Assembly: GCA_948439995.1 (NCBI GenBank)
Contig: CAOJNP010000011.1
Location: forward strand, 1 to 34,091
Reading direction: 5' to 3'
DNA from: an uncultured Erysipelotrichaceae bacterium
GTDB lineage: Bacteria > Bacillota_I > Bacilli_A > RF39 > UBA660
DNA length: 34,091 bases
Below, piece after piece: positions 366 to 26,141 of the stretch. How positions within the stretch are numbered: the stretch's first letter is position 1; each line of letters opens with the position of its first letter. Both the position numbers and the translations under genes were made by a program. The notes under the pieces were generated by a model, which was not told the origin of the DNA, searched no databases, and saw only the letters and a list, made by a program, of their open reading frames with translations.

Positions 366-394
366 AAAAAAAAGAAATAGTTTTTCTACTTCTT
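366..394 (-). terminator. Rho-independent terminator after the 393-935 gene
   Basis: On the minus strand AAGAAGTAG, loop AAAAA, CTATTTCTT form a 9-bp stem (one G-T pair) followed by a T run. The stem overlaps the stop codon of the 393-935 gene. Confidence 0.75.
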
Positions 395-935
395 ATACTA
401 ACATATCGATCACAGCACTAATATTTTTTCCCATATCTGCTGATTGATCTAGATCCGTATTTTTATATATGATTGTTAGTGTATAATTTTTAGTTGTTCC
501 AGGTGCTATTTTTAGATCATTTTTAATTATACTTTGAGTAGTTGTTGTATCTGGTAATACTTGATTTTGACTTTCTGAAATAATCTGATTTTCTTCTTCT
601 TCTAATGTTACAATTAAATCTTGCTTGTTGATAAAATTATTTACTACGGATTGCCAAACTAAACTAAAGGTTCCTTCTACATTTCCTGTATTTTTTATTT
701 GAAATGTTTTAGTAATGGTATCTCCTGGAATTAAATTACTTCCTTTTAATGTTCCATCGACTATTTGAAATTCTAATTTATTCGTATTTACATTTGTTTT
801 ATTATTATCAGGATTGGTTGTTTCCATTTTATTTGTATAAAAAGAATATGTACCTCCTGCCACAATTAAAATTAATAAAACAATCGATACTGCAAATGTT
901 ATAATCAATTTTGTATTGTTTTTTTCCTTGTCCAT
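393..935 (-). CDS. Secreted or anchored protein with SipW-dependent-type signal (TasA/camelysin-like)
   Basis: 180 residues. After a charged start there is one hydrophobic segment (about residues 11-28) ending in GGTYSFYT, the typical SipW-type signal peptide ending seen in TasA and camelysin relatives. The rest is beta-rich and polar, with a Gly-Asn-Val-Glu-Gly segment. It ends in a Y-x-L-x-I-x-Y-x-N-x-D-x-D-Q pattern that recurs in the other surface proteins of this window (25440-26084 and, more loosely, 22086-22622 and 23644-25251). Start ATG 933-935 follows AGGTGA. It has its own promoter and terminator and is unlinked to sipW, which is about 22 kb away. Function is inferred from family: an exported envelope or matrix protein processed by the ER-type signal peptidase. 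Confidence 0.65.
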   Translation of the reverse strand: MDKEKNNTKLIITFAVSIVLLILIVAGGTYSFYTNKMETTNPDNNKTNVNTNKLEFQIVDGTLKGSNLIPGDTITKTFQIKNTGNVEGTFSLVWQSVVNNFINKQDLIVTLEEEENQIISESQNQVLPDTTTTQSIIKNDLKIAPGTTKNYTLTIIYKNTDLDQSADMGKNISAVIDMLV

Positions 936-11589: not shown

Positions 11590-13542
11590 TTATTTTTTTT
11601 CACTCTTCATCTCAAATAAAATGTCTCTTAATTCCATTGCTCTTTCAAAATCTAAATTTTTAGCAGCAAGTTTCATTTCTTCTTCTACCTTCAAAATCAT
11701 ATCCATTTGCTCTTTTTTACTTAATTTTGTAGTAGATTTCTTTTGTTTTACTTCATTTGTTATAATTTCATTAATGGCTTTTTTAATTGTTTTTGGTGTA
11801 ATATGATGTTCTTTATTAAAATTTTCTTGAATGGTTCTTCTTCTAGCTGTTTCCATAATCGCTGTTTGCATTGCTTCTGATTTATTATCTGCATACATTA
11901 TTACATGTCCATTTGCATTTCTTGCACATCTTCCTATGGTTTGGATTAAACTTCTACTACTTCTTAAGAATCCTTGTTTATCTGCATCCAAAATACAAAT
12001 TAAACTAACTTCTGGAATATCGATTCCTTCTCTTAATAAATTAATTCCTACCACACAATCATATAAACCTAATCTTAAGTCATGAATAATTTTTAATCGT
12101 TCTAAAGTTTTTATTTCATTATGTAAATAAGCCACTTTTATATTCATTTCTTTTAAATAATTTGTTAATTCTTCACTCATTCTTACTGTAAGAGTAGTTA
12201 TTAATACTCGCTCATTTTTTGATGATCGAATTTTTATTTCATGAATGATATCATCAATTTGTCCAAGAGAAGGTTTTATTTCTATGGTTGGATCTAAAAG
12301 TCCTGTTGGTCTTATTACTTGTTCTACAATTTCGCCATTTACTTTTTCTATTTCATAATCTCCAGGTGTAGCAGAGACATAAATAGCTTGATTTATTTTA
12401 CTTTCAAATTCATCAAATTTTAAAGGCCGATTATCCAATGCGCTAGGAAGACGAAAGCCATAATCAACCAAAGTTTGCTTTCGCATACGATCTCCATTAT
12501 ACATTCCTCGAACCTGTGGTAGCGTTACATGAGATTCATCTACTACTAATAAAAAATCTTTCGGAAAGAAATCAATTAAACAAGTAGGGGTTTCTCCTTC
12601 TTCTCTTAATGCTAAATGTCTTGAATAATTTTCGACACCACTACAGAATCCTGTTTCTTTTAGCATTTCAATATCATAATTGGTTCTTTCTCTTATACGT
12701 TGTTCTTCTAATAATTTGTTTTGATTTTTTAATTCTATTATTCTTTCTTTTAATTCATCTTCTATTCTTTTAATGGCTTCTTGCATTTTTTCATCACTTG
12801 TCACAAAGTGACTTGCTGGAGAAATGGTAATCGTTTTTTTCTCAGAGATAATCGCTCCTGTTACCGGATCAAAAGAACATATTCGTTCCACTTCATCTCC
12901 AAATAGTTCTACTCGAATACCATGCGCATGTTCATTCACTGGAATAATGTCGATGATATCTCCTCGAACGCGAAAAGTTCCACGATGAAAATCAATGTCG
13001 CTTCTTTCATAAGTCATATCAATCAATTTATTGATTATTTGACTTCTTTGTATCCTATCTCCTAAATTTAAAATTAACATCTTATTTTGATATTCTTCTT
13101 TTTCTCCAATTCCATATATACAAGATACACTAGATACTACTATCGTATCATTATAATTAATTAAAGCACTTGTTGCTGCATGGCGAAGTTCATCTATTTC
13201 ATCATTAATAGAAGAATCTTTCTCAATATATGTATCACTACTTGGAACATACGCTTCTGGTTGATAATAATCATAATAAGAAACAAAATATTCTACATGA
13301 TTCTCTGGGAAGATCTCCTTGAGTTCCGCATACAACTGTCCCGCAAGTGTTTTATTGTGTGCCAAAACGAGAGTTGGTTTCCCAGTTTTTGCAATTACAT
13401 TTGCAATCGTAAAAGTCTTACCAGTTCCCGTAGCCCCCAGTAAAACCTGCTCTTTCTCACCATTTTCGATACCACTCACTAACTTATCAATTGCTTGTGG
13501 TTGGTCTCCACTTGGTTTATATTTTGATACTAATTTGAACAT
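11590..13542 (-). CDS. uvrB: Excinuclease ABC subunit B (intact, mosaic 5' end)
   Basis: 650 residues, full length. DNA-damage verification helicase of nucleotide excision repair. Walker A GATGTGKT at 36-43, beta-hairpin [10 protein letters not shown] at about 89-98, DESHVTLPQ, helicase motif QTIGRCARN, and the UvrC-binding UVR motif at about 612-650. ATG 13540-13542 follows AAGGAGGG. Codons 1-90 differ from the two truncated copies at 16091-16360 and 18038-18307 (about 14 of 90 residues), and are more GC-rich (about 38% by hand count) than the next 270 bases of the same gene (about 27%). The break falls exactly where the copies end. I infer that this 5' end was delivered by the newest inserted cassette. 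Confidence 0.97.
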
Positions 13543-13628
13543 ATTGCCCTCCTTATTACGACTACACTTAACCTGGAAATTCGTGTCCTAACTCATTTTT
13601 CATGTTCAAAAAATCTGACTTTTTGCTT

Positions 13629-13680
13629 GGACACGAATGTTGGTCACAAATTTACTAAATAGCACCAAATAACACTAAAT
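13629..13680 (-). repeat. A-type cassette repeat upstream of intact uvrB
   Basis: Plus strand begins GGACACGAATGTTGGTCACA and continues through three near-copies of ACTAAATA spaced about 10 bp apart. The same motif lies upstream of both truncated uvrB copies (16467 and 18394). An inverted copy, ATTCGTGTCC, is at 13579-13588. It looks like a recombinase-binding or attachment site. Confidence 0.7.
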
Positions 13681-13726
13681 GTTATAAGTCAATTTATAAT
13701 GATATATTTTAACACTTATTTCAAAG

Positions 13727-13757
13727 CAAAACAAGGAAACTCTATATGTTTTCCTTG
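13727..13757 (-). terminator. Cassette-end hairpin, copy near intact uvrB
   Basis: Minus strand CAAGGAAAAC, 7-base loop, GTTTCCTTG, then TTTTG. The same hairpin occurs at 18482-18512 at the matching place before uvrB copy 2. It probably ends cargo transcription before the uvrB leader. Confidence 0.6.
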
Positions 13758-13901
13758 CTCTTATTTTTACCTTTTTCGTTTTATTTATACATATCTACTA
13801 ATTATTAGATTCGTATCCAATTTGGTTGAATGTTAGATATCTTGTATTTTTTCTTTTTGTTTAATTTATAAATATAACTATTTAAATTATCCTTAGACCA
13901 G

Positions 13902-13921
13902 GAGAATAACAAATTATTCTC
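13902..13921 (-). other. Perfect hairpin just after the ASCH gene
   Basis: GAGAATAA, 4-base loop, TTATTCTC, 8-bp stem, 4 bases past the stop codon. There is no T run, so it may stabilise the mRNA 3' end rather than terminate. The rest of 13543-13925 holds only the cassette repeats and the uvrB leader. Confidence 0.5.
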
Positions 13922-13925
13922 AATT

Positions 13926-14903
13926 CTAAAATTTTTCTAAAACTTTCACTTTTAAATAAGTAAGTAAACTTTCATCTGTAAATTCTTCTTGAAACATTTT
14001 CGCTTTTTCTAGATAATCTTGATACAAATGTTTTTTGTATTCTAAAAATGTTTTATAACCTGCAAGTTTATAATCAACCATTTCGTCTTTTAATTCTTTA
14101 AAAGGAATAAATTCTTCACTAATTACTTCTAAGGTTCCACAATATTCGTTATTTGCATTTACAACCATATAACGCTCACCTACTTGTGTTTTTTTATCAA
14201 AAGAATATTTGCGATTCAAAATATAATCTTTTTGGCCATTCAAATAAGCTTCTGCTATTCCTTTTTTCTCAGTATAAAGAGGATAGTAAGAACTATACAA
14301 CGACGCTTTTTCATTAGTATATCTTTTTAAATTTTCTTTTTCTCTTAATTTTTCCCATCTTTTTGAGTAGCCTAGTAGAAAAAAATAATCTTTTATACTT
14401 TTTCTTTTTTTATCATCAATTTCTTTCCATTTTTTATTTAATGTTGTAATTTCTGAACTTTCCTTTTCATCTAGTAAACCAATCGCTTTTAAATAGCTTT
14501 GCATTTTCTTTAAACAACTTAATTCTTGTTTGCTATACTCTTCTAAACAATCATCAGGTATATGAAATGTTTCTGGATATCTATAAACACAACTTACTAC
14601 TTCATCAAAAGAATGACAATGACTCTCCATCATTTGATACTTAGCTTCTTTTTCTTCTGGATCTTTTCGCCCATACATTAAAGCTTCATAGTGATATGTA
14701 ACTCCACTACTAGAAACATTACCTAGCGCTTCATATAAGCTTATCTGTATATCATAACCAGCTTGTCTATATTCATCAAAATACACCCATTCAAAAGTAT
14801 CTCGTTTTTTATCCCAAAAAGGATAAGGTAAACTACAATTTTTAATTTTTTTATATCTTTTTTTCTGTCTCCAGAAATAATATTTGTTCTTTAAACTTTT
14901 CAT
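13926..14903 (-). CDS. ASCH-like domain protein, cassette cargo
   Basis: 325 residues from ATG 14901-14903. A longer frame can start at a TTG (14930) overlapping the fic stop, but that start has no ribosome site, whereas AAGG lies about 14 bases before this ATG. The last 95 residues match the ASCH pattern: VGERYMVVNANNEYCGTLEV, then PFKEL, then a Gly-x-x-x-Phe-Leu-Glu-Tyr segment and a closing Leu-rich strand. ASCH domains resemble PUA domains and are thought to bind RNA or act in nucleic-acid control. The N-terminal part (about 45-150), with FDEYRQAGYDIQISLYEALG, is unknown to me. It is translationally close to fic and probably co-transcribed with it. Confidence 0.65.
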   Translation of the reverse strand: MKSLKNKYYFWRQKKRYKKIKNCSLPYPFWDKKRDTFEWVYFDEYRQAGYDIQISLYEALGNVSSSGVTYHYEALMYGRKDPEEKEAKYQMMESHCHSFDEVVSCVYRYPETFHIPDDCLEEYSKQELSCLKKMQSYLKAIGLLDEKESSEITTLNKKWKEIDDKKRKSIKDYFFLLGYSKRWEKLREKENLKRYTNEKASLYSSYYPLYTEKKGIAEAYLNGQKDYILNRKYSFDKKTQVGERYMVVNANNEYCGTLEVISEEFIPFKELKDEMVDYKLAGYKTFLEYKKHLYQDYLEKAKMFQEEFTDESLLTYLKVKVLEKF

Positions 14904-14926
14904 AATTATCAAAACATCCTTATTTA

Positions 14927-15913
14927 TCAATCTTCTACTTTTATACTCCAGTATCCACCATTATCAGGTCCAACTCTTTCAATTATATTATTATCAACTA
15001 ATTTTTTTAAATTATATTTAACACCATCAGATGTAATATTTAAAAAACTAGCAAGTTCATTTCTTGTAACTTTAGGATTTTCTTTTATTAGCTCTATAAT
15101 TTTTAATTGATTATTATTTAATTTTGTTTTTTGGGTAGTTTTCTGGGTAGCTTTTTCTAACGATGAGTGAATACACTTTAACATAAAATCTATAAATACA
15201 TTCGCATTACCATTAACATGGCACTCTGCAATAGAATCATAATATTTTTGTTGATTTAAATATATTTCTTCTTCAATAGGAATATATTCAAACTTTGAAT
15301 TCCAATCAGTTAAAATTAAACTTACCCAGAATCTAGCCATTCTGCCATTACCATCACTAAATGGATGAATATATACAAAATAATAATGAAATATAGAGGA
15401 TAAAACTAAAGGATGAATTTTATTTTCATTATCAATCATAAACTCAAATAATTTTTTCATGAGAGATGGGACCAATATAGATTGCGGTGCTGAATAAATT
15501 ACTTCATTTCCTTTTTTTACTCCTTCACCATGATTTCTATAATAACCATTGTCATCATCAAAATACTTCATCATTAGTGTATGAGCTTTTAAAAAATCAT
15601 CTTCATCTTTCCAGTTATATTCATTTATATGTTCATATAATTCATTAGCATTTTTGACTTCTTGAATTTCTTTTCTATCGCCTAAAACAAGTTTTTTTTC
15701 TACAATATTCTCAACTGATTCTAATGATAAAGAATTTGCTTCAATTGCTAGTGATGAATGAATTGATCTAACCTTAGACTTAATTTGTAATTTCCTTTTT
15801 TTATCACTATCATCAATAATAATTAAATCAAGTTTTTTTTCAATTTCTTTTATAATTTTTTTATTATCATCTGTGATATAAAATACTGGTGTTATTGAAG
15901 CTATATTTTTCAT
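14927..15913 (-). CDS. Fic-family protein with C-terminal winged helix
   Basis: 328 residues. The Fic core HPFSDGNGRMAR (residues 183-194) matches HxFx[DE]GNGRxxR, so AMP transfer to a protein hydroxyl is likely. An N-terminal inhibitory motif SSLAIEAN (53-60) fits the class II arrangement, in which a Glu blocks the active site. A QKTTQKT linker is followed by a winged-helix domain (about 265-325), so it may bind DNA and control itself. ATG 15911-15913 follows GGAGGG. Ends in TGA. Such Fic proteins are common in genomic islands and near restriction systems; here fic is cargo between uvrB fragments. Confidence 0.9.
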   Translation of the reverse strand: MKNIASITPVFYITDDNKKIIKEIEKKLDLIIIDDSDKKRKLQIKSKVRSIHSSLAIEANSLSLESVENIVEKKLVLGDRKEIQEVKNANELYEHINEYNWKDEDDFLKAHTLMMKYFDDDNGYYRNHGEGVKKGNEVIYSAPQSILVPSLMKKLFEFMIDNENKIHPLVLSSIFHYYFVYIHPFSDGNGRMARFWVSLILTDWNSKFEYIPIEEEIYLNQQKYYDSIAECHVNGNANVFIDFMLKCIHSSLEKATQKTTQKTKLNNNQLKIIELIKENPKVTRNELASFLNITSDGVKYNLKKLVDNNIIERVGPDNGGYWSIKVED

Positions 15914-15947
15914 TTTTTATCCCTCCATTTCTATATATTTTTATAGT

Positions 15948-15975
15948 ATTATATTAAGAACACGAATGAATACAA
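15948..15975 (-). promoter_or_regulatory. Promoter of fic, partly inside the cassette repeat
   Basis: Minus strand TTGTAT (15970-15975), 16 bp, TATAAT (15948-15953). The conserved ATTCGTGTTC repeat lies in the spacer, so the end repeat and the cargo promoter overlap. Confidence 0.55.
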
Positions 15976-16090
15976 CTCTTAGCCACAAATTTTATTTGTT
16001 CATCTAATATTACCTAGTGTTATTTAGTCCTTTTTTGTGTATTAAATGATACTAAATAGCACTAAATATAAGGGTTTTAGGAGTGTCGCT
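15958..16090 (-). repeat. B-type cassette end, copy 1
   Basis: Closely matches 17914-18037. It contains GAACACGAAT, a TTTTATTTGTTCA block, and an inverted pair AGTGTTATTTAGT (16016-16028) and ACTAAATAGCACT (16051-16063). It ends in GTGTCGCTATA exactly where uvrB homology begins. Confidence 0.75.
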
Positions 16091-16360
16091 ATAATATGAA
16101 ACAAAGTATTCTACATGATTCTCTGGAAACAATTCTTTCATTTCTGCATACAACTGACCTGCTAGTGTTTTGTTATGTGCAAGAATGAGTGTTGGTTTGT
16201 TTACTTTTGCTATTACATTTGCCATTGTAAACGTTTTCCCAGTTCCTGTTGCACCCAGTAAAACTTGTTCTTTTTTCCCTTCTTTTATTCCATTAACTAA
16301 TTTTTCAATCGCTTTTGGTTGATCCCCTGCAGGTTCATATTTCGATACTAATTTAAACAT
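16052..16360 (-). pseudogene. uvrB: Truncated uvrB 5' fragment, copy 1
   Basis: 102-codon frame. Codons 1-90 are uvrB (Walker A GATGTGKT intact, ending VEYFVSYY), followed by 12 codons of cassette sequence and a TAG stop. Start and AAGGAGGG ribosome site are preserved, so a short peptide could be made, but all helicase motifs after the beta-hairpin are missing. About 87 of 90 residues match copy 2 and about 76 of 90 match intact uvrB. I read it as the 5' end stranded when cassette II inserted. Confidence 0.88.
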
Positions 16361-16466
16361 TTTGCCCTCCTTGTTATGACTACAGTCAGCTTATTATTCG
16401 TATCCAAAATTCAAAAATTTGTATCCTGACTAATTTTTAGTGCTTCAAAATCTGTCTTTTTTGCCT

Positions 16467-16499
16467 GGACACGAATGTCGGCCACAAATTTACTAAATA
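16467..16499 (-). repeat. A-type cassette repeat, copy 1
   Basis: Plus strand begins GGACACGAATGTCGGCCACA and ends ACTAAATA. It is almost identical to the first 33 bases of the repeat at 13629. Inverted partners ATTCGTATCC (16396-16405) and ATTTGTATCC (16417-16426) lie between it and the uvrB fragment. Confidence 0.7.
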
Positions 16500-16529
16500 A
16501 TATATTTTACCATCCATTTAGTAAGTAAT

Positions 16530-17825
16530 TTATTTCTCACTAATTTCTATTACCATTTGGTATTCATCTGTGTATAAGGTTTTATTACCAATTTCGTTAT
16601 AAGTATTTATTTCAATATTCTCCTTATCTAAATATTTAAGTAATATTGGTAAAGTTTTTTGTTCAAACAATTCATACCCTTTTTTAGTAAAATAGGATTT
16701 ATTTTTAGAAGTGTATTCAGGCGGTTTTGGTAACCAATTTATCTGTTTATCATTTAATAATTCTTTCCATGTATAATCTCCAACTATATTTTTTAAGGCA
16801 TTATAAATTCCTTCTTCATTATAAGTTATACGATAATATACATTTTGATTATTTAATGTTTTAATCATAATATCAAAATCACTTTCTAAAGTTCTCATTT
16901 CTCTTTCACGATACAGATTAAATTCTTTTTCAGCTTTTTCTATTGCTTGCTCATGTGAAATCTTACCATTTCCTTCTAATATTTTTCTTCTATTTAATTT
17001 AATTTGATTATCTAGCTCATTCACCCAATCTAACATTTTCATAGGTCTTTGCTCTAGTGCTTGAAGCTCGGCATAATCTAAAAATTGTGATACTAATAAA
17101 TTAAGTCTTTGAAGTTCTATTTCGGTTAAATAATTTTTAGCAATCTTCGTATCATCCAATGTTACATAATTTCCTTTGAAATTTGTCATTCCAACATAAG
17201 GTTTTTCGTTATTAACTCTTTCATAAATAAGCTCCGCTGCAGTATGTTCATGAACTGCAAAATGGAGTTTATTTTGGACTGTTGCAAAAAATTTTTTGGT
17301 CATATTGCTTCTTGGATTATAGTCAATGCTTGTGGCATAAATATCGGTAACTTGTTGATAGAAATTTCTTTCACTTGAACGTATATCTCTTATTCTTTGC
17401 AAGAGTTCTTTAAAATATCTATTTCCACCTTGTTTTAACCTTTCATCATCCATGCTAAAACCTTTTTGAATATATTCATGTAATCTAAGAGTGGCCCATT
17501 TTCTAAATCTTACTGCAACTTCTGATTGAACACGATAACCCAAAGCAATTATCATATCTAAATTATAATGATCTATATTTCTTTTTACATCTCTATTTCC
17601 CTCTTTTTGAACTAACAAGAAATTCTTGTGAGTTGCGTCCTCTTGTAATTCTTTATTTTCATAAATATTTTTAATATGCAAACTAATATTTTGCTGTGTA
17701 GTTTTATAAATATTTGCTATATGATTTTGTGTTAGCCAAATATCTTCATCAATAAATTTTATATTTACTTTAGTAATTCCATCTTTATCTTCATAAATCA
17801 TTATATCATTATCATTTTTAGTCAT
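16530..17825 (-). CDS. RhuM-family protein with a C-terminal extension, cassette cargo
   Basis: 431 residues; usual RhuM proteins are about 330-345. The N-terminal half has the family blocks: DEDIWLTQNHIANIYKTTQQN (a helix-turn-helix-like start) at about 27-47, then NLDMIIALGYRVQSEVAVRFRKWA at about 88-111, then HFAVHEHTAAELIYER. The family part ends near ESDFDIMIKTL (about 314-324). The last about 105 residues, with YRITYNEEGIYNALK and NWLPKPPEYT, look like an added domain I do not recognise. RhuM proteins are named as virulence proteins but have no settled biochemical role; they are frequent in islands. ATG 17823-17825 follows GGTGAGGT. Confidence 0.85.
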   Translation of the reverse strand: MTKNDNDIMIYEDKDGITKVNIKFIDEDIWLTQNHIANIYKTTQQNISLHIKNIYENKELQEDATHKNFLLVQKEGNRDVKRNIDHYNLDMIIALGYRVQSEVAVRFRKWATLRLHEYIQKGFSMDDERLKQGGNRYFKELLQRIRDIRSSERNFYQQVTDIYATSIDYNPRSNMTKKFFATVQNKLHFAVHEHTAAELIYERVNNEKPYVGMTNFKGNYVTLDDTKIAKNYLTEIELQRLNLLVSQFLDYAELQALEQRPMKMLDWVNELDNQIKLNRRKILEGNGKISHEQAIEKAEKEFNLYREREMRTLESDFDIMIKTLNNQNVYYRITYNEEGIYNALKNIVGDYTWKELLNDKQINWLPKPPEYTSKNKSYFTKKGYELFEQKTLPILLKYLDKENIEINTYNEIGNKTLYTDEYQMVIEISEK

Positions 17826-17877
17826 ATTTACCTCACCTTCTAACTTTGATTTCTTATAACAACTTTATCCCCTTAAT

Positions 17878-17906
17878 AATATACTATTGTTATCTTTTTT
17901 GATCAA
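17878..17906 (-). promoter_or_regulatory. Promoter of the rhuM-like gene
   Basis: Minus strand TTGATC (17901-17906), 17 bp, TATATT (17878-17883), directly inside the B-type repeat end. Confidence 0.5.
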
Positions 17907-17913
17907 TGTTACA

Positions 17914-18037
17914 AGGGCACGAATGTCAGCCATATATTTTATTTGTTCACTTAATATCAAGAAGTGTTATTTAGTCCTTTTTTGTGAATTAAATGATACT
18001 AAATAGCCCGAAATATAAGTTGTCTATCTGTGTCGCT
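17914..18037 (-). repeat. B-type cassette end, copy 2
   Basis: Same plan as 15958-16090: GGGCACGAAT, TTTTATTTGTTCA, AGTGTTATTTAGT (17963-17975) and its inverted partner ACTAAATAGCCCG (17998-18010), ending GTGTCGCTATA at the uvrB junction. The 11 bases next to the junction are identical in both copies, although the following uvrB codons belong to a housekeeping gene. Confidence 0.75.
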
Positions 18038-18307
18038 ATAATAAGAAACAAAGTATTCTACATGATTCTCTGGAAATAACTCTTTCATTTCTGCATAAAG
18101 TTGTCCCGCAAGGGTTTTGTTATATGCTAATATTAATGTTGGTTTGTTTACTTGTGTTATCACGTTGGCCATTGTAAACGTTTTCCCAGTTCCTGTTGCA
18201 CCCAGTAAAACTTGTTCTTTTTTCCCTTCTTTTATTCCATTAACTAATTTTTCAATCGCTTTTGGTTGATCCCCTGCAGGTTCATATTTCGATACTAATT
18301 TAAACAT
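17999..18307 (-). pseudogene. uvrB: Truncated uvrB 5' fragment, copy 2
   Basis: 102-codon frame identical in plan to copy 1: uvrB codons 1-90, then 12 cassette codons and TAG. The changes from copy 1 within uvrB are Ala to Thr, Lys to Gln and His to Tyr, in the stretch after VI and in LILAH. The last (His to Tyr) hits a well-conserved AHNKTLAGQ block, consistent with relaxed selection. It is farthest from the intact gene, so it should be the oldest stranded end. Confidence 0.88.
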
Positions 18308-18393
18308 TTTGCCCTCCTTGTTATGACTACAGTCAGCCTATTATTCATGTCTAAAATGATAAAAATGATTGGTTCATTTTCAACTTTTGTCTT

Positions 18394-18430
18394 GGATACA
18401 AATGTTAGCTACAAATTTACTAGATAACAC
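18394..18430 (-). repeat. A-type cassette repeat, copy 2 (diverged)
   Basis: GGATACAAATGTTAGCTACA followed by AATTTACTAGATAACACTA. Same position relative to uvrB as the other A repeats, with several changes. Its presence means uvrB copy 2 was itself delivered by an earlier cassette. Confidence 0.6.
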
Positions 18431-18481
18431 TATATGATACAAGTTGATCTCTAATAATATATTTTAACACTTATTTTACAA

Positions 18482-18512
18482 CAAAACAAGGAAACACCTA
18501 TATGTTTCCTGG
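18482..18512 (-). terminator. Cassette-end hairpin, copy near uvrB fragment 2
   Basis: Minus strand CCAGGAAAC, 8-base loop, GTTTCCTTG, TTTTG. Matches the hairpin at 13727-13757, and the surrounding 100 bases align with 13690-13820. Confidence 0.6.
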
Positions 18513-18685
18513 TAATTATTTTTATCATATTTACTATTTTTTATACATATCTTTTATTCATGAAATTTGTGTCCAAATCTTCCACTACAGGTATTAATAA
18601 ATCATTAAATATTTCTTTTGGTTTAACTTCTTGCTTTGTCATATATTATTTTGTTTTGCAATTTTTTATTGTCAAATGCTTTAAA

Positions 18686-18751
18686 TAGACACAATTGTGG
18701 ACTAAAAATTTATTAAATAGCAATCAATAATACAACCCAATTTATAATGAT
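18686..18751 (-). repeat. Degenerate fourth A-type repeat without a uvrB fragment
   Basis: It carries GACACAATTGTGGACTAAAA, TTTATTAAATAGCA and then CAATTTATAATGATATA, which aligns with 13631-13706 apart from one gap. No uvrB codons follow. It is probably the scar of an older cassette. The rest of 18308-18780 (no gene) holds the uvrB leader, repeats and hairpin listed here. Confidence 0.55.
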
Positions 18752-18780
18752 ATAAAAATGAATGTTCTTACACTCCTATT

Positions 18781-20208
18781 CTAAATTTTCTTAAAATTTG
18801 TCAAACAGTTCTTTCTTATTTCATTAATAAAAGTAAGTTTCTCATCTGTTCTAGAGTCGTTTTTTTCAATTAAATAACTTTCAATTTTTTCTAAAAATTG
18901 CTCAAAAAGTTCTGTAAAAGTTAATCCTTGCATTAATAATAATCGCATTTTTTCACTTAACTCCATTCCAAATTGATAGTACTGATATCGTTTATATTCT
19001 TTTTCTCCTAAAATTTCTTGAGCTGATTGTTCTTTTTTGTTTTGATATGTTCGAATGCTTTCTTTTCCTTCTTTTATTTCTTCTTTTAATAGAGATTCAA
19101 ATTTTTCCAAAGTAAATAATTGTAATTCTTGTAATAGTTTTTCTTGTTTTTCCGGTGGCTCACTTGAAATAAACTCTTTTTCATCAGAAATAATTTCTCT
19201 ATATTTTTCCAATAATAAATCATGATTTTGTAATATATTTATTCTTTCATTTACCATTTCAATGTGGTATTGTAAATTTTTTGTATTATTCATTCTATTT
19301 AATTCTAACACATATGAAATACTTTGCTCACAACCTTCTATTTTTTTTGAACAACGATTTATACTTGTTTCTATTGAATTATTAAATATTTCTATAGTAT
19401 TTTCAGAATTACAAGAAGCTGCAATAAGTGTTGCCAAAGAAAATATAGAAGAAAAATTATTTCTATTTTCTTCTGAATCAGTTATATCTTTAAAAATGTC
19501 GAAAAAAGTGTAGCAATTAAAATATTTATTATCGGTTTTATTCCAGGAATCACGCATTTTTTTTGGAATAACAAACATTAGTAACGTATATACAATATAG
19601 TAAATATAATAGGAATCTTTTTCTTCAATAGGAAAAAAATCTACGATCATATTTAAGAGATAATAATGATATTCGCCTTCTCCCTCTTTTAGCATTCGTA
19701 ACATATCATTTGCAAATGGAAATTCACTTGGGTAAATATAATTTTGATTTATATGCTGCAATTCGTGGTGTAATACCCGAGCTAATCCTGTTTTGTCTTC
19801 CAATTCAATTGTTTTTCCGTCTTGACATACTCCTGACGCTGATAAATAATATTCACCATTTTCATCTAAAAAATAACTTCCTTCTTTTTTTGAAAGTCGT
19901 TCTGTTAGTCCATCTAAATTAAATGGCATTTTTTTAATACATTCATATAATAAACTCTGAGGATTTATAATTATTTTATTTAATTCTAATACTTTTATAT
20001 CATTTGTCTGTTTTAATTTTTTAAAATTATATTCTATATATTCTTCTACACTTAAATGATCCAAAACATTAGATTTAGGCTTATAAAAATTCACAATATA
20101 TTGCAACCATCGTTTCACAGTGTTAATCGTTTTATTATCCCAACCCTTTTCTTCACAGATTTTATCTAATTCCATAAAGTAAGAGTGAAAATTAGTATAA
20201 TCCGGCAT
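18781..20208 (-). CDS. Putative zinc metallopeptidase-like protein (HExxH)
   Basis: 475 residues, family not recognised. The motif HHELQHINQ gives an HExxH at residues 148-152. An EGEGEYH at 175-181, about 25 residues later, could supply the third, Glu, zinc ligand as in gluzincins. The N-terminal part has a YFLDENGEYYLSASG strand pair. The C-terminal half (about 290-440) is long, charged and probably coiled-coil. No signal peptide, so it probably acts in the cytoplasm. ATG 20206-20208 follows AAGGAAGAT and overlaps the upstream gene by 17 bases. It may be cargo of an older cassette, because a degenerate repeat lies just downstream. An inactive protease fold is also possible. Confidence 0.65.
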   Translation of the reverse strand: MPDYTNFHSYFMELDKICEEKGWDNKTINTVKRWLQYIVNFYKPKSNVLDHLSVEEYIEYNFKKLKQTNDIKVLELNKIIINPQSLLYECIKKMPFNLDGLTERLSKKEGSYFLDENGEYYLSASGVCQDGKTIELEDKTGLARVLHHELQHINQNYIYPSEFPFANDMLRMLKEGEGEYHYYLLNMIVDFFPIEEKDSYYIYYIVYTLLMFVIPKKMRDSWNKTDNKYFNCYTFFDIFKDITDSEENRNNFSSIFSLATLIAASCNSENTIEIFNNSIETSINRCSKKIEGCEQSISYVLELNRMNNTKNLQYHIEMVNERINILQNHDLLLEKYREIISDEKEFISSEPPEKQEKLLQELQLFTLEKFESLLKEEIKEGKESIRTYQNKKEQSAQEILGEKEYKRYQYYQFGMELSEKMRLLLMQGLTFTELFEQFLEKIESYLIEKNDSRTDEKLTFINEIRKNCLTNFKKI

Positions 20209-22069: not shown

Positions 22070-22099
22070 AAAAAATTGCAAAAATTTAAATTGCAATTT
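22070..22099 (-). terminator. Terminator of the 22086-22622 gene
   Basis: Minus strand AAATTGCAA, 9-base loop, TTGCAATTT, TTT. The stop codon is in the loop region. Confidence 0.75.
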
Positions 22100-22622
22100 G
22101 TTTTTGTATTTCAAAGGTATAGCTTAATGATTTTCCTTGCATTTCATTTCCTGTTTTTTCATCCATCCAAATTCGAAATTGATATTCTTTTATTTCACCA
22201 TCAATAGAATTGGAATCCAATAAAAAATAATAGTTTTCTTCATCTTCATTTATAGTTAATTCTGCTAATGATGTAATGTTATTATTTAAGGAAATATTTA
22301 CGCAATGATAATCTAAACTAGAATTTTTGCTTACTTTCATCAATAAAGTATAATCTTCTTTTGTTTTTGTATCATTTATTACTTTAATGCTACTTGGATT
22401 TATATTTTTTAAAGCTTTTTCATTGCTAATTGGAAACATTGCTCCCAGTGATAAATTGGTAACTTCTAAATGGGAAAATTGAACATCGCTATAACTAGCT
22501 GCAATCGATAATACTTCATTTTTTTCTAATGTCTTCCATATGGGAAAACTTATGACTACTATAGATATTAACAATGATATTTCAATCATTTTCCAATGAA
22601 TAATTTTATTTATATTTTTCAT
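22086..22622 (-). CDS. Anchored surface protein, TasA/camelysin-like, downstream of sipW
   Basis: 178 residues. One N-terminal hydrophobic helix at about 13-30 without a clear cleavage motif, then a beta-rich domain. The C-terminal YQFRIWMDEKTGNEMQGKSLSYTFEI matches the ending common to SipW-linked proteins of gut Bacillota: aromatic, R-x-W-x-D, N-E-x-Q-G-K, then a final strand. ATG 22620-22622; GAGAGGA lies about 11 bases upstream. It sits right after sipW, though a terminator separates them. Probably an envelope or fibre component. It may remain membrane-bound, since the GTYSYFT-type end of the signal is missing. Confidence 0.65.
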   Translation of the reverse strand: MKNINKIIHWKMIEISLLISIVVISFPIWKTLEKNEVLSIAASYSDVQFSHLEVTNLSLGAMFPISNEKALKNINPSSIKVINDTKTKEDYTLLMKVSKNSSLDYHCVNISLNNNITSLAELTINEDEENYYFLLDSNSIDGEIKEYQFRIWMDEKTGNEMQGKSLSYTFEIQKQIAI

Positions 22623-22675
22623 ATCCCTATTATTCCTCTCAACTTGGTTTTTTATACTATCATTTTTTTCTTAAA

Positions 22676-22705
22676 AAAGCAAGAAAAGAAGAATCACTTC
22701 TTCTT
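22676..22705 (-). terminator. Terminator of sipW
   Basis: Minus strand AAGAAGAA, loop GTGA, TTCTTCTT, then a T-rich tail. Overlaps the sipW stop. Confidence 0.75.
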
Positions 22706-23543
22706 ATTTCTTTAATTTAGGTAAATTATATCTTTCTTCATCATCTTGATCTTCTTCTTTTTCTATTTCTTTTTTTGGTTCATTTTTCTTTATTTTCGTA
22801 TTTACATTTGTTAATTCTTGTTTTGTTTTTAAAGGGTCTGGTTCTTTTTCACCACGTCCTGAATAATAACGTTTTTTTAATTTTTCTTCAATTTCTTTTT
22901 TCTTTTCTTTTTCTTTTTCTTCTTTTTTTACTTCCGTAGTTAATGCTTCATTTACTTTCTTTTTGGCTCCCGTTAATCGGAATATTTTTAATATATCACT
23001 TAATATGATCAGTAAAGCTGGTATTACAACTATAATAAGCCATCCATATGAACTAGATAAGAAGGATTGCAATCTTCCTAATTGTGGTACTTTAAATAAA
23101 ACTTTTCCCAAAACGTTTTTAAATTGAACAGTGGTAGAATCTGGACTTAAATTATTATCTCCTTGAGTTTTATATTCTAAACCATTTTCTGTTTCAGTAA
23201 TTGCTACAACACGATGTGTAATGGTTAATCCTTTTGAAATACTGCTAGTGGAAATAAAAGTTATGATATCTCCTACTTTAATATCTTCTGGTTTTTTTAC
23301 TTTCACATCTACAATTACATCATATACTTTTAAATTTGGGGTCATACTTGGACTTACAATCGTGTATAGACCAATTTTAGGTTCGTATTTTTCACCTTTA
23401 CTGGCATATAATTTATTAGCAAGAAAATAATAAGCTAAAAAGGCAGCTAAAAACAAGAGAATCACTAAAACGACCCAGGAAATGACGCTTGCAATCGTTT
23501 TGACAATTTTTTTGATGCCATTATATGATTCTTTTTGATTCAT
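22704..23543 (-). CDS. sipW: Signal peptidase I, ER type (SipW-like)
   Basis: 279 residues. Membrane helix at about 18-42, then the catalytic Ser in VSPSMTPN (Ser66) and a His in ITHRVV (His110) in place of the bacterial Lys. This Ser-His pair marks the archaeal/eukaryotic-like SipW branch. GDNN at 128-131 and a second membrane helix at about 170-190 follow. The tail from about 205 is unusually long and highly charged (Lys/Glu repeats) and faces the cytoplasm. SipW enzymes cleave TasA-type proteins; four candidate substrates lie in this window (393, 22086, 23644 and 25440). ATG 23541-23543 follows GGAAGGG. Confidence 0.9.
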   Translation of the reverse strand: MNQKESYNGIKKIVKTIASVISWVVLVILLFLAAFLAYYFLANKLYASKGEKYEPKIGLYTIVSPSMTPNLKVYDVIVDVKVKKPEDIKVGDIITFISTSSISKGLTITHRVVAITETENGLEYKTQGDNNLSPDSTTVQFKNVLGKVLFKVPQLGRLQSFLSSSYGWLIIVVIPALLIILSDILKIFRLTGAKKKVNEALTTEVKKEEKEKEKKKEIEEKLKKRYYSGRGEKEPDPLKTKQELTNVNTKIKKNEPKKEIEKEEDQDDEERYNLPKLKK

Positions 23544-23568
23544 AGCTACCCTTCCTATTCTATTATTT

Positions 23569-23597
23569 ATTATAATCGATATGGATTAAAAAAACAA
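23569..23597 (-). promoter_or_regulatory. Promoter of sipW
   Basis: Minus strand TTGTTT (23592-23597), 17 bp, TATAAT (23569-23574). Confidence 0.6.
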
Positions 23598-23623
23598 GGA
23601 ATTATTCTATTCCATAAAAAAGT

Positions 23624-23645
23624 GAAAAAGAGCAATTTTGCTCTT
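23624..23645 (-). terminator. Terminator of the calcium-repeat protein gene
   Basis: Minus strand AAGAGCAA, AA, TTGCTCTT, TTT; perfect 8-bp stem that includes the stop codon. Confidence 0.85.
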
Positions 23646-25251
23646 AATTTACTGCTTCAATTTCAACTTTTGTACTAAATATTTTATCTTTATTTTGATC
23701 TTGATTCACTCCAGTTTCCAAAAATTCATATGTTATGTCATAAGTATAACTAGTATTACCTGGAATAATAATATTTTCTAAAATATAAGAATCTGCATTT
23801 GGAGCTACTATTCTAGATCTTTGTGTAATTCCATTTCTTTTTAATGAATAAACAAAATCACTCGCAGGATTGAATGTATTTTGTACATCTTTTAATTTAA
23901 TATTATAAATCATTGTTTTGTTTGTATTATTATTAATGGTAAATCTTTGTGTGTCACTCCATCCTGGAGCTATTTCAGTAATTGAGATTCCTTTAATATA
24001 AGATACATATAAAATTTGATTATTTGTTGAATCAATATTTACTTTATCGTCTCCAGATACGCTAACAGAACAGTTTTTTTCACACTTTCCATCTTCGTTG
24101 GTGTCAATATTTTTATCTGGTTTGTTGTCACCATTCGTATCAATGTTAATATCTGGTTTTCCATCTCCATCTATATCAATATTAATATTTGGGAATCCAT
24201 CATTGTTTGTATCGCAATTGATATCACAAATTCCATCGTTATTTGTATCTTGATTCATTGGATTTCTATCTGGCTTCCCATCTCCATCTGTGTCTACTGC
24301 AATATCTGGTGTTCCGTCTTTATCAATATCAATGTTAATATCTGGTTTGTTATCACCATTGGTATCAACGTTAATGTCTGGTTTTCCATCTCCATCTATA
24401 TCAATATTTATTTCTGGGAATCCATCGTCATCAATATCACAATTGATATCACAAATTCCATCATTATTTGTATCTTGGTTCATTGGATTTCTATCTGGCT
24501 TCCCATCGCCATCGGTATCTACTGCAATATCTGGTTTTCCATCTCCAGTAACATCAATATTCATATCTGGTTTCCCATCGCCATCGGTATCAATGTTAAT
24601 ATCTGGTTTCCCATCGCCATCGGTATCAATGTTAATATCTGGTTTTCCATCTCCATCAGTATCAATGTTAATATCTGGTTTTCCATCTCCATTGGTATCA
24701 ATATTAATATCTGGCTTTCCATCTCCATCTAAATCAATATTTATTTCTGGGAATCCATCATCATCGATGTCACAGTTAATATCACAGATTCCATCATTAT
24801 TTGTATCTTGGTTCGTTTTGTTAAAATCTGGTTTTCCATTGTTATTGGTATCAATATTAAAATGTGGAACTCGATCATTATTATAATCAATGTTAGTATC
24901 TGGCTTTCCATCTCCATCGGTATCACAATTGATATCACAGATTCCATCTCCATCTAAATCAATATTTAAATCAGCTTCCCCATCTCCATTGGTATCACAA
25001 TTTAAATCACATTTTCCATCACCATTCATGTCACAATTAATATCACATTTTTTTGGTTCATCTACTGATGATCCATATAACTTAATATAAGAATATGTAG
25101 TTCCTATCATTGCTAAGAAAATAATGATTATACATAGTACAACTATCGCTACTGTTTTTTTACGTGCAGACTCTTTTTCTTCTGCTAATAGTTCTTGATA
25201 TTGTTCTTCATAGTCTATATTATTTTCCATTGATTTATTATTACGTTCCAT
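23644..25251 (-). CDS. Membrane-anchored protein with 26 calcium-loop repeats and a TasA-like C-terminal domain
   Basis: 535 residues. A charged N-terminal tail (1-32), then one membrane helix at about 33-50 ending GTTYSYIK, a SipW-type signal variant. Residues 74-394 are 26 tandem units of consensus D-x-[DN]-x-D-G-x-x-D-x-N-[IVC], the DxDxDG loop used for calcium in thrombospondin type 3 and dockerin repeats. Several units carry paired Cys (ICDINC). The C-terminal about 140 residues are beta-rich, with IAPGWSDTQRFTI and a final NQDQNKDKIFS, like the other TasA-type proteins here. ATG 25249-25251 follows AAGGATGAT. Probably an extended calcium-stiffened stalk outside the cell, possibly a matrix or fibre part. 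Whether SipW cuts it is unproven. Confidence 0.8.
   Translation of the reverse strand: MERNNKSMENNIDYEEQYQELLAEEKESARKKTVAIVVLCIIIIFLAMIGTTYSYIKLYGSSVDEPKKCDINCDMNGDGKCDLNCDTNGDGEADLNIDLDGDGICDINCDTDGDGKPDTNIDYNNDRVPHFNIDTNNNGKPDFNKTNQDTNNDGICDINCDIDDDGFPEINIDLDGDGKPDINIDTNGDGKPDINIDTDGDGKPDINIDTDGDGKPDINIDTDGDGKPDMNIDVTGDGKPDIAVDTDGDGKPDRNPMNQDTNNDGICDINCDIDDDGFPEINIDIDGDGKPDINVDTNGDNKPDINIDIDKDGTPDIAVDTDGDGKPDRNPMNQDTNNDGICDINCDTNNDGFPNINIDIDGDGKPDINIDTNGDNKPDKNIDTNEDGKCEKNCSVSVSGDDKVNIDSTNNQILYVSYIKGISITEIAPGWSDTQRFTINNNTNKTMIYNIKLKDVQNTFNPASDFVYSLKRNGITQRSRIVAPNADSYILENIIIPGNTSYTYDITYEFLETGVNQDQNKDKIFSTKVEIEAVN
24070..25032 (-). repeat. 36-bp tandem repeat array coding the calcium-loop units
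   Basis: 26 in-frame units, mostly 36 bp; three units have 9 extra bases coding TNQ or MNQ. There is a higher-order pattern: the block starting DTNNDGICDINC recurs three times (units 7, 16 and 22), each time followed by a [DN]DGFP unit. Units 9-13 are nearly identical. This indicates growth by unequal exchange. Confidence 0.9.
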
Positions 25252-25286
25252 AAATCATCCTTCTTTCGGTTCTCTATTCTGTTTTG

Positions 25287-25316
25287 ATTATAGCATATTC
25301 TGTTATTTTCTTGCAA
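25287..25316 (-). promoter_or_regulatory. Promoter of the calcium-repeat protein gene
   Basis: Minus strand TTGCAA (25311-25316), 18 bp, TATAAT (25287-25292) with an extended TGC. A consensus-like, probably strong promoter. Confidence 0.7.
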
Positions 25317-25397
25317 GAATATCAGATTAAAATTCTTCTTTATTTTAAAATTATTTTATTTCTTTACTATTTTTTTTCTTTTTCTTAATTTTATTCC

Positions 25398-25430
25398 AAA
25401 AAAAATCTATCATATAGATAGATTTTTTTT
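25398..25430 (-). terminator. Terminator of the TasA-like gene
   Basis: A8TCTATC, 5-base loop, GATAGAT8: perfect 14-bp stem ending in eight T. Works on either strand by symmetry; it follows the 25440 gene. Confidence 0.9.
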
Positions 25431-25439
25431 CATTCACGA

Positions 25440-26084
25440 TTATGCTTTTGGAGCAAAACTCATTGCTACACTAAATGTTTTACCTTGTTCACTATTTTGA
25501 TCAGCATCTTCGTCATTGATATATTCGATAACTAAATAATAAGTATCATCTGTGCTAGGTGTAATTGTAATATCTGTAGTAACAGGTGTAGTTCCTGTAA
25601 ATGTACCAGTCTTAACAGCTGTTCCTGCATTTGTTACATCACATGTCATAGCATCAGAATACTTTGTAATGCTTCCATCTACTACAGCTTGTGGATTTGA
25701 TTCTGTACAAGTAACTCCATTTGTAGCTACATTAGCTGTAGATACTTTATATAAACTATATTGAATATGATTTCCAAAATCTGTAACACTTGGAGTTAGC
25801 GTTAATGTTCCTGTAACACTTTCTGCATCCGCAGCTCCACTTCCTTTTACTGTAACGGTTTTTAATGCTTTGTATCCTGGATAAACGGTTCCTTCAGGAC
25901 TTACATTGCTTCCCATATCCATTACTGCACTTGCTAATGTTTGTGTTTTAACAGTTGTTGTATTATTTTCATTATTACTTGTAGTTACACTTGCTGTAAA
26001 GTATGCAAATGTCGCACCTACCACTGCTACTAATAATGTAGCTACTGCAATTACAGTTAATAAAATTGTATTTTTCTTTTCCAT
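25440..26084 (-). CDS. TasA/camelysin-like secreted protein with SipW-type signal
   Basis: 214 residues from ATG 26082-26084, preceded by AAGGAGG. A TTG 19 codons upstream lies on the promoter and is rejected. The signal MEKKNTILLTVIAVATLLVA ends VVGATFAYFTA, a textbook SipW-dependent signal. The mature part is rich in Thr, Val and Ser and poor in Lys, with a YYLVIEYIN strand and a closing D-x-D-Q-N-x-x-x-G-K-x-F-S pattern. Codon use favours more GC-containing codons than its neighbours, as in highly expressed genes. It has its own strong promoter and terminator. Likely a major surface or fibre subunit processed by SipW. Confidence 0.8.
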   Translation of the reverse strand: MEKKNTILLTVIAVATLLVAVVGATFAYFTASVTTSNNENNTTTVKTQTLASAVMDMGSNVSPEGTVYPGYKALKTVTVKGSGAADAESVTGTLTLTPSVTDFGNHIQYSLYKVSTANVATNGVTCTESNPQAVVDGSITKYSDAMTCDVTNAGTAVKTGTFTGTTPVTTDITITPSTDDTYYLVIEYINDEDADQNSEQGKTFSVAMSFAPKA

Positions 26085-26112
26085 GACTCTCTGTATCCTC
26101 CTTACAATATCA

Positions 26113-26141
26113 ATATTAGCAAAAGTCTTTTTTGAATTCAA
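26113..26141 (-). promoter_or_regulatory. Promoter of the TasA-like gene
   Basis: Minus strand TTGAAT (26136-26141), 17 bp, TAATAT (26113-26118) with TGC just before it. The stretch 26142-26324 holds nothing else I can see. Confidence 0.6.

Follow-up and report, generated by a model that had tools for sequence, protein, structure and literature searches.

The closest described counterparts of the locus examined here are TapA-SipW-TasA of B. subtilis and SipW-TasA-CalY-CapP of B. cereus, in which an ER-type signal peptidase lies beside TasA/camelysin-like subunits with SipW-type signals and the locus includes an accessory protein (PMC9674648, PMC13082335). TasA fibres polymerise by donor-strand exchange, the N-terminal strand of each subunit completing the next one, and TapA has been proposed as the giver of the first strand (PMC9674648, PMC10151520). 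As regards anchoring of the fibre, a role of TapA goes no further than being "thought to be involved" (PMC9674648). The ER-type SipW, the camelysin/TasA fold and the Dx[DN]xDG loop are already known. The difference resides in the accessory protein, here named Rep, which bears a TasA-like head on a stalk of calcium-type repeats. TapA, by contrast, donates a strand and its Ig fold is complete (PMC10151520); CapP contains QKKV/AEE repeats as well as a DUF4047 domain (PMC13082335). We identified no TapA-like gene, and by none of the tests made is Rep a TapA homologue.

The window, i.e. the whole stretch of 34,091 nucleotides that was analysed, is contig C11 of the 52-contig, 1.14 Mb genome of an uncultured gut bacterium. 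Four genes follow one another on its minus strand, in the order of transcription Cam (25440-26084), Rep (23644-25251), SipW (22704-23543) and D178 (22086-22622), and this order is kept within the genus. The open reading frames are where the preliminary description had placed them (22086-22622, 22704-23543, 23644-25251 and 25440-26141, all on the minus strand), and its view of a SipW-centred locus, with a repeat stalk fused to a TasA-like head and the Cam gene close by, was borne out. It had also credited each gene with its own promoter and terminator. Separate sigma-70 promoters had to be discarded, as promoter-like matches were no commoner than in shuffled sequence (61 versus 66.9 +/- 7.5, i.e. 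chance level). Terminators fared better, and terminator-like hairpins with T signals were found on the minus strand after Cam (25403-25425, hairpin and T run, -8.1 kcal/mol), Rep (23628-23645, hairpin and T run) and SipW (22686-22705), hairpin-plus-T signals at least as stable appearing in 3, 7 and 10 of 400 random windows, respectively, but none was found after the D178 gene.

The signal peptidase (279 aa) is of the ER type, as had been claimed. It matches TIGR02228, the ER/archaeal type, with 95 bits (cut-off 51.9, E 4e-27), and scores 91.8 bits on the SipW model NF046067, below the cut-off of 190. The catalytic Ser66 and His110 are invariant across eight relatives. Past the second transmembrane (TM) segment the protein ends in a charged tail some 90 aa long (22704-22980), in which an EPDPL motif is kept in the genus. 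The gene that follows encodes D178, a membrane-anchored beta-sandwich protein of 178 aa found near sipW in 23 of 80 loci. Two TasA/camelysin-like proteins had been announced between 22086 and 26141, and only Cam could be confirmed as such. The D178 profile shows no kinship either with the Rep head or with Cam (hhalign probabilities of 0.1 and 0.5), its modelled fold is a generic beta-sandwich, and the Z of 6.2 that the model reaches against TasA is tied with unrelated folds. D178-like domains recur in many ORFs of about 450-690 aa in the genomes G002, G004 and G018, with up to 12 matches per genome, as a family of surface proteins. In relatives uvrB comes after D178, separated from it by one small gene at the most. 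In the window, two 102-aa N-terminal uvrB fragments (16052-16360 and 17999-18307), which flank a RhuM-family gene (16530-17825), precede the full uvrB (11590-13542), all within the interval 11590-20208. The order in relatives, together with the partial uvrB copies, suggests that an island of about 8 kb was inserted here.

Cam (214 aa, 25440-26084, minus strand) is camelysin/TasA-like and carries a SipW-type signal, GATFA-YF, which is the sole match over the TIGR04088 cut-off in the whole genome and places Cam among SipW substrates. Its likeliest start is the ATG at 26084 and not the TTG at 26141, because the 35-member Cam family begins with MEKKNTILLTVIA at that point. We take Cam as a member of the TasA/camelysin (Peptidase_M73) family from PF12389, which matches seven of the 35 Cam homologues (E 8.5e-8 for the best member), the window Cam itself giving an E of 0.0024, under the gathering score. 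A relationship with CFA/I pilins, hinted at by a PDB search (E 1.8e-5), had no single stretch that passed and was not used as homology. Outside this locus, a further camelysin/TasA-like protein of 180 aa is encoded at 393-935 (minus strand; PF12389 24.8 bits, cut-off 22.5). It is also matched by the Rep-head profile (E 5e-18), and its gene has conserved neighbours of its own in one relative (L019).

Rep (535 aa, 23644-25251, minus strand), with syntenic homologues in relatives, comprises an N-terminal anchor, 26 repeat units and a C-terminal TasA-like head. Our preferred reading, which we hold to have about an even chance of being right, is that Rep would be a membrane-tethered, length-variable, calcium-stiffened stalk whose TasA-type head ends or tethers the Cam fibre. 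The head (23647-24018, minus strand) had already been described as a TasA-like C-terminal domain, and both profile homology and fold support this. Compared with the Cam family profile, it aligns over 122 columns with an hhalign probability of 99.3 (E 4e-20). The AlphaFold2 model of the head (pLDDT about 83-97, with 90-97 given for the domain at 23647-24018) finds the TasA fibre 8aur as its best VIA match (Z 8.1, rmsd 3.4, 124 aligned residues), and TasA entries take ranks 1, 2 and 7 (8aur 8.1, 5of1 7.9, 5of2 7.7), with unrelated matches following closely at 7.8 and GOLD-domain folds within 1 Z; in Foldseek the TasA fibre ranks third. Sequence and structure agree on a TasA-like head, though unrelated folds trail closely in Z, a narrow lead that we count against our preferred reading, and the computation shows its homology to Cam and, in the model, its TasA fold.

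The array (24070-25032, minus strand) covers residues 74-394, with a spacing of 12 residues and three steps of 15. Its units follow the pattern D-x-[DN]-G-D-G-x-[CP]-D-x-N-[CI]; the 26 units previously counted are all there in register, but only 21 of them fit D-x-[DN]-x-D-G strictly. Taken over 1384 units (45 proteins), the consensus reads D1-T-[ND]3-G-D5-G6-K-[C/P]8-D9-x-N11-[C/I]12, with Asn11 at 93% conservation. Both Cys8 and Cys12 are present in 707 of these units and both are absent in the remaining 677, not a single unit having just one of them. The rule holds with zero exceptions when only the 812 distinct unit sequences are considered (335 with both, 477 with neither). No such coupling exists between Cys12 and the Cys8 of the following unit, so that the partner of each cysteine is most simply sought within the same unit. 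The all-or-none pattern predicts an intra-unit bond or bridge, a disulfide being the plainest reading and a metal site the alternative. No VKOR match over the cut-off was obtained in 21 genomes, which we count against the disulfide in our preferred reading. Synonymous changes outnumber non-synonymous ones in two of three block comparisons (9:2, 9:5 and 4:5). In the AlphaFold2 model, which comprises the head and the final units, short bridges recur every 12 residues at unit positions 10 and 12 (pLDDT 79-89), and the units appear to stack in a solenoid-like manner. An array that were simply a low-complexity expansion, constrained in composition and devoid of ordered fold, so that anchor and head alone matter, would agree with the great variation in unit number among species and with one relative that has no repeats. 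The perfect pairing of Cys8 and Cys12 over 812 distinct units, the conservation of Asn11, the strict 12-residue register and the periodic bridges of the model all speak against it, and make such an expansion very improbable.

Calcium binding by the units is suggested by their loop signature, D-x-[DN]-x-D-G-x-x-D, common to TSP3 and other Dx[DN]xDG loops, which bind Ca2+ in a near-identical way across diverse families (PMC3123361). Rep units differ from TSP3 in the strict 12-residue register, the Asn at position 11 and the cysteines paired at 8 and 12. The TSP3_bac profile had no match in the genome of the window, with working controls; hmmscan of five Rep-type proteins gave no TSP3 match, and neither did the TSP_3 profile in a genome search that lacked a working control. 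Another parallel are the serine-aspartate Sdr/Clf stalks of staphylococcal MSCRAMMs, also Asp-rich spacers that separate a functional domain from the cell. Rep differs from them by its opposite orientation (head C-terminal, anchor N-terminal), its ordered 12-residue units and a C-terminus at which no LPXTG was seen. NCBIfam matches of Rep to Sdr/Clf-type families are compositional and far below cut-offs. The matches of the array to MSCRAMM, Filamin and Ntox24 were set aside as compositional; they either missed the cut-offs or had no single stretch that passed. Arrays on plasmids of Enterococcus, Prescottella and Gordonia, with 33-45% identity among the matches listed, were not retained as relatives, their likeness probably reflecting loop composition; no signal peptidase is annotated in the Enterococcus plasmid region examined. 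A search of 392 genomes with a degenerate 33-base pattern, designed on one Cys-type unit, had no match and is uninformative, since the pattern also misses the window.

The dissection of Rep into regions is telling with respect to which parts vary. The anchor is mostly about 60-78 aa long across homologues and the C-terminal tail 142-156 aa in most of them, a second group having about 240-264 aa, and between these constant ends the array ranges from about 7 to about 108 unit lengths. A more distant relative, G017, has the ends of Rep on either side of a cadherin-like beta-sandwich domain (PF12733, 1e-6) in place of the repeats. With the ends kept and the middle swapped or stretched, the array behaves as a spacer. 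At another locus (L074), a 93-aa ORF before sipW, with two Cam genes upstream, corresponds to the N-terminal anchor of Rep alone and may be a decayed or stand-alone anchor.

The N-terminal part (25033-25251, minus strand) contains, in the homologue alignment, a conserved cytoplasmic EEQYxxLLxEEKE segment, a TM helix and a SipW-like site, GTTYSY. This site was seen by eye, and the whole-genome TIGR04088 search, by which Cam was classed as a SipW substrate, gave no match to Rep. Of the 42 homologues that are full-length, 20 have a SipW-like GATYS-Y site, Rep of the window being one of these, and the strict form is missing in the other 22, which together with the lack of a TIGR04088 match makes processing of Rep uncertain. 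Such a site, and the position of Rep adjoining sipW, would also fit a protein that SipW cuts and releases as a matrix spacer in or between TasA-type fibres, comparable to the accessory TapA and CapP, with the array storing calcium or gelling the matrix. We consider this unlikely, given that more than half of the homologues are without the strict site and that the conservation of the cytoplasmic EEQYxxLL segment would be unexpected in a discarded signal peptide. The genome has three sortase matches, so that other anchoring routes exist, a point against our preferred reading.

The distribution of Rep leaves little doubt about its link with the peptidase. Long Rep matches were found in five of 40 related genomes (G002, G003, G006, G013 and G018), adjoining sipW in all five. 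For a broader sample, 80 loci were collected by scanning species genomes with a SipW alignment, and were thus chosen for sipW and not for repeats; nearly all come from metagenome-assembled genomes (MAGs) of uncultured gut Bacilli/Tenericutes, including two Candidatus Ventrenecus. ORFs with at least four repeat units amount to 45 of the 1041 in these loci. Directly upstream of sipW lie 41 of them, one is directly downstream, two are one called ORF away, and the remaining one, of 2640 aa, is found two genes downstream. With so few repeat ORFs and 41 of them directly upstream of sipW, the linkage cannot be chance. The linkage is not reciprocal, many sipW loci being without Rep and without Cam. 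The head is present in 43 of the 45 repeat ORFs, one of the two exceptions being cut by the contig end, and appears in 17 of 296 genomes of the class, all in the family of the window. Where upstream sequence exceeds 2 kb, as it does in 24 Rep loci, a Cam-like gene lies within five genes in 18 of them. The preliminary description had set down that its proposal would fall if most relatives had the repeat protein but lacked sipW or TasA-like genes with it. This is not the situation found, with 44 of 45 repeat ORFs beside sipW or one ORF from it, and with the head and Cam counts just given on the TasA-like side.

The remaining six of these 24 Rep loci have no Cam gene nearby, and we count them against the fibre-tether reading. 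They would suit an adhesin, in which the head, carried on the calcium-array stalk, would be a tip that binds host mucus or other cells, and Rep would never join the Cam fibre, and so would the stalk-plus-tip layout and the variable length. A tip homologous to the adjacent fibre subunit, and an almost invariant place beside a dedicated peptidase, are hard to reconcile with this explanation, and we judge an adhesin to be improbable.

Under our preferred reading of Rep as a fibre tether, the N-terminal TM helix would keep the protein in the membrane, or SipW would cut it where the GATYS-Y site persists. The 12-residue units, each with a calcium loop of the Dx[DN]xDG type, would stack into a stiff solenoid, with a short bridge on both sides of Asn11 (positions 10 and 12) in every unit and a Cys8-Cys12 cross-link in about half of them; unit number would set the length of the stalk, and the C-terminal head would point away from the cell. 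There it would join a fibre of SipW-processed Cam subunits through beta-strand complementation. In the simplest case the head would accept a donor strand at the fibre terminus, so that the Cam fibre would be tied to the cell. The acceptor role appears the more natural because the TasA-like domain lies at the C-terminus and is preceded by a linker modelled with low confidence (model residues 79-93), which leaves no obvious free N-terminal strand. Since TapA is proposed as a donor, Rep as acceptor would sit at the opposite end of the fibre. Gram-negative donor-strand pili (FimH, CsuE, CFA/I pilins) follow the principle proposed for head and Cam, a beta-sandwich completed by the strand of a neighbour, and pilin domains are among the structural matches; unlike these pili, the Rep/Cam locus has no usher and no periplasmic chaperone, and the likeness carries no claim of common origin. 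A bolder proposal, which we regard as tentative and somewhat doubtful, is that the array may represent an undescribed class of calcium solenoid (12-residue rung, Dx[DN]xDG loop, Asn11 ladder and optional Cys8-Cys12 staple) in a length-tunable membrane rod, its TasA-like tip being a terminal donor-strand acceptor, i.e. a Gram-positive fibre base opposite to TapA.

In the open literature searched we found no description of a length-variable fusion of anchor, stalk and head fixed beside sipW, nor of the all-or-none Cys8/Cys12 rule. The latter translates into a sharp prediction about structure, and a designable calcium rod might be made from the repeat. The attachment of TasA-type fibres to the cell is still under discussion, and dozens of lineages now provide natural fusions of a fibre-type domain to a membrane anchor, the spacer between the two differing more than tenfold in length. 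Through these lineages anchoring, strand polarity and stalk length become directly testable.
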